Origin: an uncultured Opitutia bacterium
GTDB taxonomy: Bacteria; Verrucomicrobiota; Verrucomicrobiia; Opitutales; Opitutaceae
Direction: 5' to 3'
Assembly (NCBI GenBank): GCA_903925425.1
Contig: CAIYFD010000132.1
Span: forward strand, 1 to 32,460
Length of the DNA stretch: 32,460 bases
A program made the position numbers and the translations under genes. Of the stretch, positions 25,980 to 32,460 are shown one piece after another. Position 1 is the first letter of the stretch; each line of letters starts with the position of its first letter. The notes under the pieces were generated by a model that was given only the letters and a program-made list of their open reading frames with translations, had not been told where the DNA came from and did not search any database.

Positions 25980-27089
25980 GTGAAGATCCCCATCCTTGAC
26001 CTGAAGCCCGCGACCGAAGAACTCCGGCCGGAGTTGAACGAGGCCTTCGCCCGGGTCATGGCGTCCGGACATTTTCTCCTCGGGCCCGAACTGGAGGCAT
26101 TCGAGCGCGAATACGCGCAAAGCACGGGAGCCAGCCACTGCGTCGGTGTCGCCAACGGGCTCGAGGCGCTGCAGCTGGTGCTCATGGCCTGGGGCGTGGG
26201 CCCGGGCGACGAGGTCATTGTGCCCTCGAATGGCTACATCGCCACCTGGCTCGCCGCCACTCACGTCGGGGCGACCATTGTCCCGTGCGAGCCCGATCCG
26301 CTGACCTACAATCTCGATCCGGCGAAGCTTCCCGCGCTGATCACCCCCCGGACCAAGGTCATCCTGCCAATCCACCTCTACGGTCAGACCGTGGACATGG
26401 ACGGCATCAACGCGGTGGCCCGCCCACGCGGCATCAAGGTGCTGGAGGACGGCGCCCAGTCCCATGGGGCGCGGCTGCGGGACCGCCAGAGCGGCAATCT
26501 GGGCGATGCCGCCGGCATCAGTTTTTATCCGAGCAAGAACCTCGGCGCACTCGCCGACGGCGGAGCGGTCCTGACCAACGACGCGCCCCTGGCCGATCAG
26601 ATCCGCCAGCTGCGGAACTACGGCTCGAAAGTGCGCTACCAAAACGAGCAGCTCGGGTTGAATTCCCGCCTGAGTGAACTGCAGGCGGCTTTCCTGCGCG
26701 TGAAACTGCCGTACCTCGCCGCGTGGAATGCCCGGCGCTCCGGCCTCGCCCGGCACTACCTGAAGAATTTGAGCGGGATCGATGGCCTGACCCTGCCGGC
26801 GGTGCCCGCGTGGGCGGAGCCCGTCTGGCATCTGTTTGTCGTGCGGACCACCCGCCGCGATGCGCTGCGGGATTTCCTGACTGCGCGCGGCATCGGCACC
26901 CAGATCCACTACCCCATCCCGCCCCATCTCTCGGGAGCCTACCACCACCTAGGCTGGAAACCGGGAGACTTTCCACTGGCCGAGACCCTCGCCGCCGAGG
27001 TCCTGAGCCTGCCGATCGGGCCACACGTGGCACCCGGTGACGTGGACGAAGTTTGCCGGGCCGTGCGCGAATTCTTCGGGCGTGGCTGA
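25980..27089 (+). CDS. DegT/DnrJ/EryC1/StrS family PLP aminotransferase
   Basis: GTG start; [100 protein letters not shown]. Confidence 0.94.
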
Positions 27090-27147
27090 GGCTCCGCGGT
27101 CTTTAGCCTTGAAGGTGCCGGCTCGGTTGCTGGCATGCAGCCTACCC

Positions 27148-27999
27148 ATGGCGGTCACAGCCTCCCGATTGTTCCTGGCCGGATTGAATCCGGTCGCCCC
27201 CCTTCGCCAGCTCACCGCCCGACGTGAACTGCTCTGGCAGTTCACCAAGCGCAACTTCGAGCAGAAGCACAAAGGCAGCTACCTGGGCATCGGCTGGGCC
27301 GTGCTGAACCCACTGCTGATGCTCGGACTGTACTTCATCGTCTTCGGTAAGATCTTCGGGGGTCACTTCGGCGGCATTCCGGAGGAAGGACCGTTCGACT
27401 TCGCCTTGGCCCTGCTCATCGGCCTCACGATCTTTCACTTCCTCTCCGAGGCCATCAACCAGTCACCGGCGCTCATCGTCGCGAATCCCAACCTCGTAAA
27501 GAAGGTGGTATTCCCGGTGGAAATCATCCCGGTGGCCAATCTCGGCGCGGCCTTGGTGAACTTCGCCGTCTGTCTGGCCCTCGTGGTCGTGGGGCAGGCA
27601 TTTTGGGGCAAGCTCGGGCTCGGAATCGGAATGCTTTGGCTGCCCGTGCTCGTCACTCCCGTGATCCTCATGGGCTTCGGCCTCGGCTGGCTGCTGGCAG
27701 GCTTGGGCGTTTTTCTGCGCGACATCGCCCAGACCACCCAGTTTCTGTCCCTGGTCCTGATGTACATCAGCGCGGTGTTTTTCCCGGTGGAGCGGATCAA
27801 ACAAATCCCCCTGCTGTGGGACTTCTTGAAGTTCAATCCGGTGCTGCAATCGATCCGCCTGTGCCGGGAAACCCTGCTCTGGCACCACGCCATCGACTTG
27901 ACCCTCCTCGGCTGGCTCTACGTTGCCGGCCTGCTGATCTTCGTCGCCGGGCACGCGTGCTTCGCCGCGCTCCGGCCGTCCTTTGCCGACGTTCTTTAG
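27148..27999 (+). CDS. ABC-2 type polysaccharide export permease (Wzm/TagG-like)
   Basis: RRELLWQFTKRNFEQKHKGSYLGIGWAVLNPLLMLGLYFIVFGKIF; QFLSLVLMYISAVFFPVERIKQIP; LLKFNPVL region. Confidence 0.92.
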   Translation: MAVTASRLFLAGLNPVAPLRQLTARRELLWQFTKRNFEQKHKGSYLGIGWAVLNPLLMLGLYFIVFGKIFGGHFGGIPEEGPFDFALALLIGLTIFHFLSEAINQSPALIVANPNLVKKVVFPVEIIPVANLGAALVNFAVCLALVVVGQAFWGKLGLGIGMLWLPVLVTPVILMGFGLGWLLAGLGVFLRDIAQTTQFLSLVLMYISAVFFPVERIKQIPLLWDFLKFNPVLQSIRLCRETLLWHHAIDLTLLGWLYVAGLLIFVAGHACFAALRPSFADVL

Positions 28000-28072
28000 G
28001 ATTGCCGTTGCCGTTCGCCGGCAGCGTCATCTCCGGTTCAACTTTACCGACGTTTCCAAGACATTTCCGGCC

Positions 28073-29545
28073 ATGCCCTCCCTCCTCCGATCCCGCCTGA
28101 AACTCGCGATTTCCTTCGGCCTGACTACGCTAGTCCTCTTTTTCAGCGGTTGCGCCAAGCAAACCACCCCCGCGGCGGAGACAGAGGCCGAAGCCAAGCG
28201 GCTTTACGAGCGGGCCGACGACTTCGTGAAGAAGATCGGCGAGGGCACCTACTCCTACGAGTACATCAATTTCCATTACAATCAGGCGGACAAGAACATC
28301 CAACGGATCCTAACCGCCTACCCCGAAACGGAGATGGGCAGGAAGCTAAAGGCCGGGGAACTCAAACTGGGCAACTACACCATCGACCAGTTCCGGGACT
28401 CCATCCTGCCCCAGTTGGGCGACATGAAGGAGGCCACGGAGAGCTTCATAAATTGCGCCATCTACCTGCATAATCTGCCCGAGGCGAATAGGGCGGAGTC
28501 GCGCGGTGCGCTGGCCCTGATTCTGGAGACACTCTGCCGTCAGGTGCGATCGGATGAGGCGCTCATATTTCCCAACCTCGATGAGGACCGGCTGCTCAAG
28601 CTGGCAACCATCACTCGCATCGTGTCCACGGGGGCGCAAAAAGGCGTCGGCTTGAACGTGATCCAAAGTGCGGAGCCGGGGGAAGAGCCGACGCTGGCAG
28701 GAGCCTACGCCCAAGGCTTGGCGGTCGGCGGCATGAAACTTGAGGATTTAGAGGCGCTGCCCGGTCGCTTCGAATCCCCCGGCCGCGAAGTGGAGCTGGG
28801 CATCCTCCGAGGCATGATCGAGCGCATGGCCAACATCTACCGCAACGATCACGACCTCATGCTCAAGAAAAAGACGGCCGAGAAGTCCGCGATTTCGGAA
28901 AAATCGCCCGCACCCGCCAAGGTCGAATCGGTCCGCTATGATGTGGCGGACTATTTTCGCCAAACCTTTGGGAGTCGGCCCTTGCCCGCCGCCAGCATCG
29001 CCTACGCCGGTTACCGGGCTCTGCAGGGTGAACTGGAGGAGGCCCGCGCCCTGACCGCCGGTCTCGGCGACGAAGCCCTGGCGCAGGTCATCATCAACTA
29101 TTACGATTCCCTCGGCCTGAACGACCGCCTGACCGGCGGCGAATCGCTGCACCGGCAATGGGGCTTGGGAGCGGCTGCCGTGACGCAGTGCGACCTCAAG
29201 CTGGTCGATTACTTGGCGCGCAACGGCCTGCTGCCCGAAGCCGAACGCCTGCGCATCTCCGCCGTGGCCACGACCCCGGCGCTGCGCGACCAGTACATCC
29301 GCAGCTACATGCATGGCATGTTCTATTCCCGCACCGCTCTCTTCCGGCTCACCAACACCACGATTCCGGATCTCGACATCCGTGACCCGGCAATCTGCGC
29401 CGAGGTACTGCTCGACTGGGTCCTCTCGCCCAACCGGCTCCAAAAGGGCTCTTCCTGGGGCGCCGACCAGATCCTCTTCAAGTACTTCTCCATGCAAAAG
29501 GAAGGCCGGCCGGTTTCCCGCCAGATTGGCGCCAAGCGCAAGTGA
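28073..29545 (+). CDS. Uncharacterised lipoprotein
   Basis: MPSLLRSRLKLAISFGLTTLVLFFSGCAKQTTPA lipobox; alpha-rich remainder with no family recognised. Confidence 0.8.
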   Translation: MPSLLRSRLKLAISFGLTTLVLFFSGCAKQTTPAAETEAEAKRLYERADDFVKKIGEGTYSYEYINFHYNQADKNIQRILTAYPETEMGRKLKAGELKLGNYTIDQFRDSILPQLGDMKEATESFINCAIYLHNLPEANRAESRGALALILETLCRQVRSDEALIFPNLDEDRLLKLATITRIVSTGAQKGVGLNVIQSAEPGEEPTLAGAYAQGLAVGGMKLEDLEALPGRFESPGREVELGILRGMIERMANIYRNDHDLMLKKKTAEKSAISEKSPAPAKVESVRYDVADYFRQTFGSRPLPAASIAYAGYRALQGELEEARALTAGLGDEALAQVIINYYDSLGLNDRLTGGESLHRQWGLGAAAVTQCDLKLVDYLARNGLLPEAERLRISAVATTPALRDQYIRSYMHGMFYSRTALFRLTNTTIPDLDIRDPAICAEVLLDWVLSPNRLQKGSSWGADQILFKYFSMQKEGRPVSRQIGAKRK

Positions 29546-29598: not shown

Positions 29599-30918
29599 AT
29601 GAACGAATTCCTCTCCTTCCTGCGCATGGCGTTCGAGCCTGCCGGGGCGGATGAAGCTGGCCGGATCTTCAACACCTACTGGTTCGTGGTGTTCGCGGCA
29701 GTCGCAACTGCCGGTTTCTGGCTCCTGCGCAAACCGGCCCTTCGCCTGCCGTTCCTCGCCCTCGCCTGCGTGGCCTTCCACTACCATTTCGCCGGACCGG
29801 CTGGAATGGCCCCGATCATCGTTCTCGGCATTGTCACCTACCTCATTGGGCTGACCCGCAGCCGCCACGCCTGCGTGGCCGGCATCATCCTGTCCGTCCT
29901 GGCGCTCTGTTTCTACAAGTACGCGCATTTCCTGACCCTCGAGGTGCTGGGCCAGATCAACAAAAGCTGGGGTCCCGCGATCGAGGCCTACGCCCGCCTG
30001 AAACTGCCCAAGCTGGCCTCCCCCGAGGGCAGCGCCTATCTTTTTGTGCCGCCCCTCGGCATGAGTTTCTTCGCGTTCGAGTTCGTGCACTACCTTTACG
30101 AGGTAAGGAAGGGTGCCGCCCCGCTCAGGAATCCGCTACACTTTACCCTGTTCTCGATCTTCTTCCCCTCCCTAGTAGCGGGGCCGATCAAGCGTTTCGG
30201 ACAGTTCATCCCGTCGCTCGAGGCCGGGGCGAGTCAGGTCGGTCCCGACGATGTGGCGATTGGTTTCCGCCGGATCGCCATGGGCTTCCTCAAAAAGGTG
30301 GTAATTGCGGACAACCTGACGTCGGCACTCGGGCTTTATATCGGCACTTACAACGATCCGCATGTGGCCCAGTTCGCGGCGTACGGCATGGCCACCCGCT
30401 GGTTCCTGCTAATCCTGATCGCGCTGAGAATTCTCTTCGATTTCAGCGGCTACAGCGACATCGCCATCGGGCTGGCCCGCCTGCTCGGCATCCAGCTTCC
30501 GGAGAACTTCAATTGGCCCTACGCAGCCAAAAGCATCCAGGATTTCTGGCAGCGCTGGCACATTTCGCTGAGCTCGTGGATCCGGGACTACGTCTACATT
30601 CCCCTCGGCGGCAACCGCCACGGAGCCGGCCGCAAGATCCTGAACGGACTCGTGGCCTTTGCCTTGTGCGGACTCTGGCATGGCGCGGCTTGGAACTTTG
30701 TGGTCTGGGGCCTTTATCACGGCACCGGGCTGGCCATCTGCGCCAATTACCGCGCTCTGCCGGGCGTCGGCCAGCCGCTGGGCAAACTGCTCGATCTGGC
30801 CCCGAAGGGTTCATGGCTGCTCACCCAGCTCTTTGTTTGCCTCGGCTGGCTGCTGTTCTTCTATCCCCTCGACAAGGCGGCGCAACTGGCCGGGCTGCTC
30901 TTCGGAATCACCCCATGA
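29599..30918 (+). CDS. MBOAT family O-acyltransferase (AlgI/DltB-like)
   Basis: SIFFPSLVAGPIKRFGQFIPSLE, DFSGYSDIAIGLARLLGIQLPENFNWPY, DFWQRWHISLSSWIRDYVYIPLGGNRHG, catalytic His in GLWHGAAWNFVVWGLYHG. Confidence 0.96.
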   Translation: MNEFLSFLRMAFEPAGADEAGRIFNTYWFVVFAAVATAGFWLLRKPALRLPFLALACVAFHYHFAGPAGMAPIIVLGIVTYLIGLTRSRHACVAGIILSVLALCFYKYAHFLTLEVLGQINKSWGPAIEAYARLKLPKLASPEGSAYLFVPPLGMSFFAFEFVHYLYEVRKGAAPLRNPLHFTLFSIFFPSLVAGPIKRFGQFIPSLEAGASQVGPDDVAIGFRRIAMGFLKKVVIADNLTSALGLYIGTYNDPHVAQFAAYGMATRWFLLILIALRILFDFSGYSDIAIGLARLLGIQLPENFNWPYAAKSIQDFWQRWHISLSSWIRDYVYIPLGGNRHGAGRKILNGLVAFALCGLWHGAAWNFVVWGLYHGTGLAICANYRALPGVGQPLGKLLDLAPKGSWLLTQLFVCLGWLLFFYPLDKAAQLAGLLFGITP

Positions 30919-32159
30919 CCACCAAGGAGATTTTCCTGGCGCTCCGCACCAGCATGGTCACCCGCACCGTGCTGGCGGGCCTCGCGGTCGGTTTCGTCGG
31001 CATGTGCCTGCTCGGACGCCGCGCCGCCCACACCGTGGCTCACGAGAACTTCATCCGCTTCACGCAGTACACTTCCCCGGAATCAAAGTACTACCCGACG
31101 GTCAGCGAGATGATGTCGATCGTCCGCGCAAAGATCAAACCGGGGCAGATCCTCGTGGTCGTCGGCGGCAATTCCATCCTGCGCGGCGTCGCCCAGACTC
31201 CGGACCAGGTCTGGTCCCGAAAACTGCAGGAAAAGCTGGGCGATGGCTACTGCGTGGTGAACTTCGCCTTCAACAGCTCCCTGATCACGGACGCCGCCTC
31301 GGTCGCCGCGGAGGCACTGTCCAAGGAGTTCCCCCGCCAGATCTACATCGCGAACGCGGCGCCGACGCAGGCGCCCACGCCGGGCGGCAGCAGTGTCTAC
31401 CGCTGGGTCTATTGGGATGCGTATTACAAGGGCCTGTTGCTCGATGCTCCTGCCCGGGAAAAGAAGGTCGCGGACACCATCTATACCCGGATTCCTTATC
31501 CAGACGGGCACGTCGTCTACCCTTTCAGGGGCAATATCCAGGAGCTGAAGCTCGCCGCCTGGTTGGACAGCTGGTGCTACTTCAACGATTTCTGGAATGA
31601 CGTTGCCTATGAGGATTTCAACACCGTCTGGGGCAACCTGATGCCCGGGTTGGCCGACTTCATGCAGCCGCGGAAAAACTGGCGGGACCCGGATCCCGAC
31701 GGGACGCAAATCCCCATGACCGTCCGCTTTCCTGCCACGACTCTCGAGGGCGAACTGGCCAACATCCGCGGCAACAGCCAATACGCCTTCAACAAGGACG
31801 CTGCTGGAAAATGGGAGATCTATCTCCCCCTTTGGGACGACGTTTTCCAAAAAGGCATCCAGGATATTTTCCCGCCGGCCCTGAAATCGCGCACCTTGAT
31901 TCTGCTCAGCGGCACCGCGACGTACTACACGCGCTGGCTAACCGAGGATGAGCGCTATCGCGACAAGATCGCCTATGAGATGGCCGTGCAGCGCTGGAAG
32001 GCGGGCGGCTTCGACGCCATGGAGTACGGGCGCGATTTCGCGATCGAGGACTTTTATGACCGGACCCATCTCACGGCAACCGGCGCCCTGAAGCTGTCCG
32101 GCATGGTGGCACCCAAGGTCCGCGAAATGGCTCAGCAACTCGGATATCTCCCCAAATGA
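30915..32159 (+). CDS. Membrane-anchored SGNH/DltD/AlgJ-like acyltransferase
   Basis: N-terminal TM; block I VVGGNSILRG (Ser), block V-like DRTHLTATG (Asp-x-x-His); ATGA overlap with the MBOAT gene. Confidence 0.75.
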   Translation: MTTKEIFLALRTSMVTRTVLAGLAVGFVGMCLLGRRAAHTVAHENFIRFTQYTSPESKYYPTVSEMMSIVRAKIKPGQILVVVGGNSILRGVAQTPDQVWSRKLQEKLGDGYCVVNFAFNSSLITDAASVAAEALSKEFPRQIYIANAAPTQAPTPGGSSVYRWVYWDAYYKGLLLDAPAREKKVADTIYTRIPYPDGHVVYPFRGNIQELKLAAWLDSWCYFNDFWNDVAYEDFNTVWGNLMPGLADFMQPRKNWRDPDPDGTQIPMTVRFPATTLEGELANIRGNSQYAFNKDAAGKWEIYLPLWDDVFQKGIQDIFPPALKSRTLILLSGTATYYTRWLTEDERYRDKIAYEMAVQRWKAGGFDAMEYGRDFAIEDFYDRTHLTATGALKLSGMVAPKVREMAQQLGYLPK

Positions 32160-32302
32160 GCTCGCCCGAACAATTCGTCCGCTCCCCGCTCGCCCGGCAT
32201 GCGTTCTCGCTGCTGGTCGGGCTGACCGTCGGCGTGTTTCTCCACTACCTGCTCTACCGGCTCGGGCTCCCGATCCAGCCGTTCATCTACGTGGCGTTCT
32301 GA
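32156..32302 (+). CDS. 48-aa single-TM microprotein with DltX-like C-terminal FIYVAF motif
   Basis: MSSPEQFVRSPLARHAFSLLVGLTVGVFLHYLLYRLGLPIQPFIYVAF; ATGA overlap with the SGNH gene and stop/start overlap with the next gene; below the length cutoff of the supplied ORF track. Confidence 0.8.
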   Translation: MSSPEQFVRSPLARHAFSLLVGLTVGVFLHYLLYRLGLPIQPFIYVAF

Positions 32303-32460
32303 TGTCGCTGTCCTCCCGCACCTTCCTGCTCGTCACCGCGCTGCTGCTCAGCGGCGCCGCCCTGCGCGCCGATCCCCTCGACGAGTGGACGTGGCGCGGC
32401 ACGGAGGCCAAGGGCAGTTTTAAGGGCGAAAACTACAACGGTGCCGCCTACGCCAACGGC
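32302..32460 (+). CDS. Secreted protein, N-terminal part (truncated by window edge)
   Basis: MSLSSRTFLLVTALLLSGAALRADPLDEWTWRGTEAKGSFKGENYNGAAYANG...; signal peptide; ATG overlaps the preceding stop. Confidence 0.7.
   Translation, partial: MSLSSRTFLLVTALLLSGAALRADPLDEWTWRGTEAKGSFKGENYNGAAYANG

Follow-up and report, generated by a model that had tools for sequence, protein, structure and literature searches.

The window, the whole stretch of DNA that was analysed, comprises 32,460 nucleotides from an uncultured Opitutia bacterium. At its end an MBOAT gene, an SGNH/GDSL-fold gene and a small ORF follow one another on the same strand. The features at this locus are as follows.

25983..27089, + strand: DegT/DnrJ/EryC1 sugar aminotransferase (PF01041, 4e-107)
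27037..27999, + strand: ABC-2 polysaccharide-export type permease, Wzm/KpsM-like (PF01061, 7e-18; weak KpsM/Wzm hits)
27983..29545, + strand: 520-aa lipoprotein-like conserved protein without a Pfam match, a possible accessory part (conserved upstream neighbour)
29599..30918, + strand: MBOAT acyltransferase with an AlgI/PatA-like core (Pfam PF03062, 1e-34; alignment; tree)
30915..32159, + strand: SGNH/GDSL-fold acyltransferase with a single N-terminal membrane helix, predicted at 3-39 (alignment; AlphaFold)
32156..32302, + strand: 48-aa single-span microprotein, proposed acyl shuttle (homology, selection, linkage)
32282..32299, + strand: C-terminal hexapeptide FIYVAF of the microprotein, in which the acyl group is proposed to sit on Y45 (codon 32288-32290) (sequence, conservation)
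32302..32460, + strand: downstream exported protein, N-terminal part only since the window ends inside the gene (conserved after the microprotein)

The genes are tightly packed. The MBOAT stop and the SGNH ATG (30915) overlap in ATGA, as do the SGNH stop and the microprotein ATG (32156), and the microprotein stop overlaps the ATG of the next gene at 32302. The microprotein has the sequence MSSPEQFVRSPLARHAFSLLVGLTVGVFLHYLLYRLGLPIQPFIYVAF. Rechecking the DNA reproduced all the coordinates and motifs that the sequence-only reading had assigned to the MBOAT, the SGNH protein and the 48-aa ORF. Among these three products Pfam recognizes the MBOAT alone (PF03062), with no match for the SGNH protein or the microprotein.

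The MBOAT ends in LLFGITP, with neither a C-terminal extension nor a C-terminal F-x-Y-x-x-F. That it lacks a shuttle motif at its end had been claimed from the window, and is confirmed in the sequence and in the homologue alignment. Judged by that alignment, the end is genuine and not the product of a frameshift, because 19 homologues stop no more than a few residues from the column where it lies. The start is less certain: in most homologues the first residues are M-I-F-x-T-Y-W-F, and this falls about 21 residues into the window ORF. The catalytic-type histidine (LWHG, H361) is invariant in 20 of 20 aligned rows. DltB is the only NCBIfam match of the protein, and the score against this equivalog (TIGR04091) is 176.8 bits, below the curated cutoff of 375; the match to DltB in the PDB (6bug) is 8e-30. 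In hhalign comparisons its profile matches the fused AlgI/PatA type at 6.5e-95 versus 1.8e-32 for DltB, which places it nearer to the AlgI/PatA type at the level of profiles. The window genome also encodes a second, ordinary fused MBOAT ending in FLYFQF.

The SGNH protein contains the motifs GGNS (S87) and DRTH (D382, H385), and these three residues are invariant in 18 aligned SGNH proteins. An exported SGNH protein with a serine and D-x-x-H is thus present in the window system. Its AlphaFold model has a pLDDT of 91.8 and a pTM of 0.90, and includes the N-terminal helix. The best fold match in the PDB is DltD (3bma; E 2.9e-4, probability 1.00, 416 columns), with a TM-score of only about 0.4. 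The SGNH profile did not match either of two DltD sequences.

Homologues of the microprotein were found by several routes. A search with the SGNH protein across 388 genomes of the phylum matched five other genomes, all of the window's family. These loci were found without a microprotein profile and before any motif search. At six of the seven SGNH-relative loci, ...HYLLYR..LP..PFIYVAF (once FIHVAF) is the exact C-terminus of a short ORF or ORF end; the seventh locus is cut by a contig end. A microprotein profile search of Opitutaceae matched 39 of 252 genomes in 14 of 49 genera, and a few of these matches (E ~1e-3) are probably due to chance. Scanning contigs of 84,980 species gave 37 microprotein loci. 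Four are from Melainabacteria/Cyanobacteriota MAGs (L027, L032, L039 and L056), and the others are all Opitutales/Opitutae-type or labelled so. Since PxxPFI[YH]VAF was one of the two scan patterns, these 37 loci exaggerate how well the motif is conserved. Less biased sets come from the SGNH-first search and from the profile or MBOAT-first searches.

The hexapeptide is the exact C-terminus in nearly all of these proteins. F-x-Y-x-x-F ends 45 of 46 distinct microproteins, and the single exception, FIHVAF, is in a genome that lost its MBOAT. The x positions vary (FIYVAF, FIYVSF, FIYAAF, FIYVVF, FIYAVF, FLYVAF, FVYVAF and FVYVGF). Homologues without this C-terminal motif would have refuted the original proposal, which survives this comparison. 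Pairwise pN/pS over whole microprotein genes is 0.05-0.47, and in the pooled last 19 codons pN is 0.012 compared with a pS of 0.485. By this measure the ORF is a conserved gene under strong purifying selection. Outside the hexapeptide H30, Y31, R35, P39 and P42 are conserved. Lys and Arg are more frequent on the N-terminal side of the membrane segment in 27 of 39 microproteins and less frequent in four, which weakly favours an N-in/C-out topology. What weakens the bias is R35, often together with a lysine, on the C-terminal side; apart from it, the C-out orientation is argued only from the proposed function. A PDB match to the light-harvesting 1 alpha chain (E 0.014) covers only the transmembrane helix and a histidine and ignores the conserved C-terminus; it was rejected as chance.

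The distribution of the separate microprotein is complementary to that of the fused motif. MBOATs were sought in 171 genomes of the family (at least 90% complete) with the motif-less MBOAT profile, and 80 more loci were retrieved. A long C-terminal extension is present in 54 MBOATs, and in every one of them it finishes with F-[IL]-Y-x-x-F. Within the retrieved stretch, mainly the downstream side, neither a microprotein nor any further short ORF ending in this way was found near any of the 54. Conversely, all 27 evaluable MBOATs without the extension adjoin a motif-bearing microprotein: 24 window-type MBOATs with enough contig have it within the cassette, and three are accompanied by a second microprotein family described below. 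None of the 27 carries a fused hexapeptide or any other copy of the motif, and they stop 1-7 aa past the core. Counted per genome, 25 of the 171 contain a split MBOAT and a microprotein, none a split MBOAT alone, three a microprotein alone and 143 neither (Fisher 5e-27, kinship ignored). The gene order varies (MBOAT-SGNH-microprotein, MBOAT-microprotein-SGNH or SGNH-microprotein-MBOAT), and the set remains together. The proposal that a separate microprotein supplies the motif missing from the MBOAT is supported by this complementarity, which is complete in the loci examined.

In each of the three genomes with a microprotein alone (G469, G533 and G161), the MBOAT is decayed or lost. In G469 the MBOAT carries an internal deletion and FLYVAF is kept. 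G161, of the same genus, has no split MBOAT and carries the sole Tyr-to-His change (FIHVAF). The loci of this decay series are L017:3752-3934 and L135:2331-2956. In G533 an MBOAT remnant runs into the SGNH end. Genomes that lost the MBOAT offer a natural control, with the proposed carrier tyrosine free to change.

Several other cassettes depart from the usual arrangement. At L036:4675-6105 the MBOAT and microprotein genes are adjacent and in frame with a single TGA between them, a natural near-fusion, and no related SGNH gene is found within 6 kb. An AlphaFold model of the read-through protein (TGA read as W) has a mean pLDDT of 73.8, and below 50 at the motif. The confidence is low since no more than six MBOAT rows could be combined with microproteins in one alignment, and the model was set aside. 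Degraded cassettes (L050, L134 of G580, L040 of G533, L032 and L056) contain a frameshifted or deleted MBOAT, an in-frame stop in the microprotein or a truncated SGNH gene; some of these copies may be assembly errors. In G182 a second SGNH-microprotein pair (L013:7986-9394) is located in a heptose cluster without an MBOAT of its own, and may share the MBOAT of the L012 locus.

The second microprotein family is found at L138:1424-1606, L140:3175-3354 and L141:2601-2780 (genomes G582, G564 and G572). Its members are 60-61 aa long, end in ...GQSS[KR]FIYIDF and lie beside a motif-less MBOAT, followed by a GDSL/SGNH gene. No sequence kinship with the window microprotein is detectable beyond the hexapeptide. 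Over positions 28-60, the profile of the second family hits fused MBOATs at their C-terminal end (E 8e-5 to 3e-4). This is as expected if the microproteins are a detached, or never attached, last helix.

We placed 52 MBOATs in a tree rooted on DltB. Fused MBOATs from six phyla form one clade (99/99). Window-type MBOATs, including two cyanobacterial-lineage rows, form a second (96/99), and those of the second microprotein type a third (100/100). One change between the separate and fused states explains all rows of the tree. The separate shuttle is possibly the older state, with the hexapeptide fused to the MBOAT once to give the AlgI/PatA clade; we hold this as a conjecture that may well be wrong. 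As part of the same conjecture, stand-alone microproteins (DltX and two unrelated Gram-negative families) would mark deep MBOAT branches. The root branch is long and rests on three DltB rows only, so the direction of change is no more than a suggestion. The window's MBOAT type occurs in only four of 279 sampled Verrucomicrobiota genomes, all of the window's family, and the remaining MBOATs listed from those 279 genomes have fused-type lengths. In the phylum of L027, a single genome among the 292 sampled contains the microprotein. These counts indicate that the variant is rare and patchy.

The surroundings of the cassette bear on its substrate. The window lineage keeps the order aminotransferase, permease, 520-aa protein, MBOAT, SGNH, microprotein and downstream exported protein. 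The DegT/DnrJ/EryC1 aminotransferase is kept in L020 and L022, and the ABC-2 permease in L020, L022 and L024. The 520-aa protein is directly upstream in these last three loci and near the cassette in L013, L025, L028, L033 and L035; it is possibly an accessory factor. L020-L024 and L030 retain the downstream exported protein behind the microprotein. At about 12 other loci the cassette occurs with an HddA-like heptose kinase, a nucleotidyltransferase, a GmhA-like isomerase, a transaldolase and a Gfo/Idh oxidoreductase, and glycosyltransferases recur around cassette loci. In L013, L014 and L015 the cassette is inside a cluster of the kinase, nucleotidyltransferase, isomerase and transaldolase, which hints at a heptose-containing surface glycan as the acceptor. 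The acceptor is likely a surface polysaccharide, with its identity and the acyl group undetermined. No DltA (TIGR01734 above cutoff) was found in 12 genomes, comprising the window genome and relatives, most with the cassette; two of 14 control genomes exceed the cutoff. From this we infer that acyl-CoA is a likelier donor than D-Ala-DltC.

Three linked genes, an MBOAT without extension or motif, a conserved hexapeptide and a complementary distribution are observed. We interpret them as a three-component envelope-polymer O-acylation machine with a microprotein shuttle, and give this reading a probability of about 85%. Its acyl-Tyr chemistry, donor, polymer, C-out topology and complex formation are inferred. 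A cytoplasmic thioester (probably acyl-CoA) would donate an acyl group to the MBOAT, which would pass it through the membrane to Tyr45 of the extracytoplasmic C-terminal FIYVAF. The flexible end of the microprotein would then bring the acyl group to the membrane-anchored SGNH protein, at Ser87, and the SGNH protein would transfer it onward to a surface polysaccharide. The microprotein would replace the last transmembrane helix and hexapeptide of AlgI/PatA-type MBOATs, as DltX does for DltB. In PatA, acetyl-Tyr has been demonstrated on the hexapeptide, and a Tyr-to-Phe substitution abolishes acetylation there (PMC12148441). The stand-alone shuttle put forward by the sequence-only reading is supported on comparative grounds, without experiment; with the same reservation, the 48-residue membrane protein very probably carries the acyl group between both enzymes.

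The microprotein could instead scaffold or stabilize the MBOAT-SGNH complex without carrying an acyl group. DltX likewise binds both partners in a heterotrimer (PMC12148441), and a binding surface is suggested by H30, Y31, R35, P39 and P42, which are conserved beyond the hexapeptide. However, the most constrained part is the tyrosine-containing end, an F-x-Y-x-x-F with free x positions fits the acyl-shuttle rule, and these MBOATs hold no other copy of the motif. We consider a purely structural role unlikely, and both roles may be true.

Still less probable is a Dlt D-alanylation system of DltB, DltD and DltX, either transferred or divergent. The sole NCBIfam match of the MBOAT and the best PDB match of the SGNH model point in this direction, and hhalign aligns the microprotein with DltX over 24 C-terminal columns (E 0.0026, probability 12%). 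Against it, fused AlgI-type MBOATs score similarly to the window protein, which falls far short of the DltB cutoff, and its profile is far nearer to the fused AlgI type. The DltX Pfam model (PF12459) gives no hit to the microprotein at E<=1, whereas a true DltX from L. crispatus used as control gives 7e-16, and DltA is above cutoff in none of the 12 genomes. Horizontal transfer of Dlt was rejected on the DltB score, the lack of a DltA above cutoff in those genomes, the hhalign ranking and the absent DltX Pfam match. The selection and homology results refute a chance reading frame overlapping real genes. Although this G+C-rich sequence contains many ORFs of 48 aa, this one has homologues in 14 of 49 family genera and another phylum, strong purifying selection and ATGA coupling.

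The shuttle system proposed here has a bearing on what is currently said of such pathways. A 2025 paper describes non-Dlt MBOAT/SGNH pathways as having no DltX-like microprotein (PMC12148441), which would make the window system a new variant; outside Dlt, the shuttle had been reported only as a C-terminal part of the MBOAT. The literature searched, subscription papers not covered, gave no mention of this kind of microprotein in Verrucomicrobia and no contrary account. Two families of proposed shuttle microprotein in Gram-negative bacteria contradict the current statement. A detached shuttle of 38-66 aa beside an AlgI-type MBOAT amounts to the fused enzymes dissected by nature, with shuttle, MBOAT and transferase separately mutable, swappable and titratable.

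The second family shares with the window system a motif-less MBOAT, an adjacent single-span microprotein ending in F-x-Y-x-x-F and a GDSL/SGNH gene; it differs in its unrelated microprotein sequence and separate MBOAT clade (100/100). Like Dlt, which serves teichoic acid D-alanylation in Gram-positive bacteria (DltB-DltX-DltD), the window system combines a motif-less MBOAT, a separate single-span F-x-Y-x-x-F microprotein and a separate SGNH transferase whose model is closest in the PDB to DltD. Unlike Dlt, its microprotein is outside the DltX Pfam model, its MBOAT is below the DltB cutoff and nearer to the AlgI type, its hosts are Gram-negative and, in the genomes searched, without DltA above cutoff, and its neighbours are genes for nucleotide sugars and glycosyltransferases. 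With the PatA/PatB and AlgI/AlgJ O-acetylation pairs, which form a neighbouring clade in the tree, it shares an AlgI-type MBOAT core, a separate SGNH protein and an acyl-shuttle hexapeptide. In those pairs, however, the MBOAT itself carries the hexapeptide, fused on through two extra helices. The comparison supports well, as far as sequence relationships can, a new variant in which a DltX-like architecture is built from non-DltX parts.
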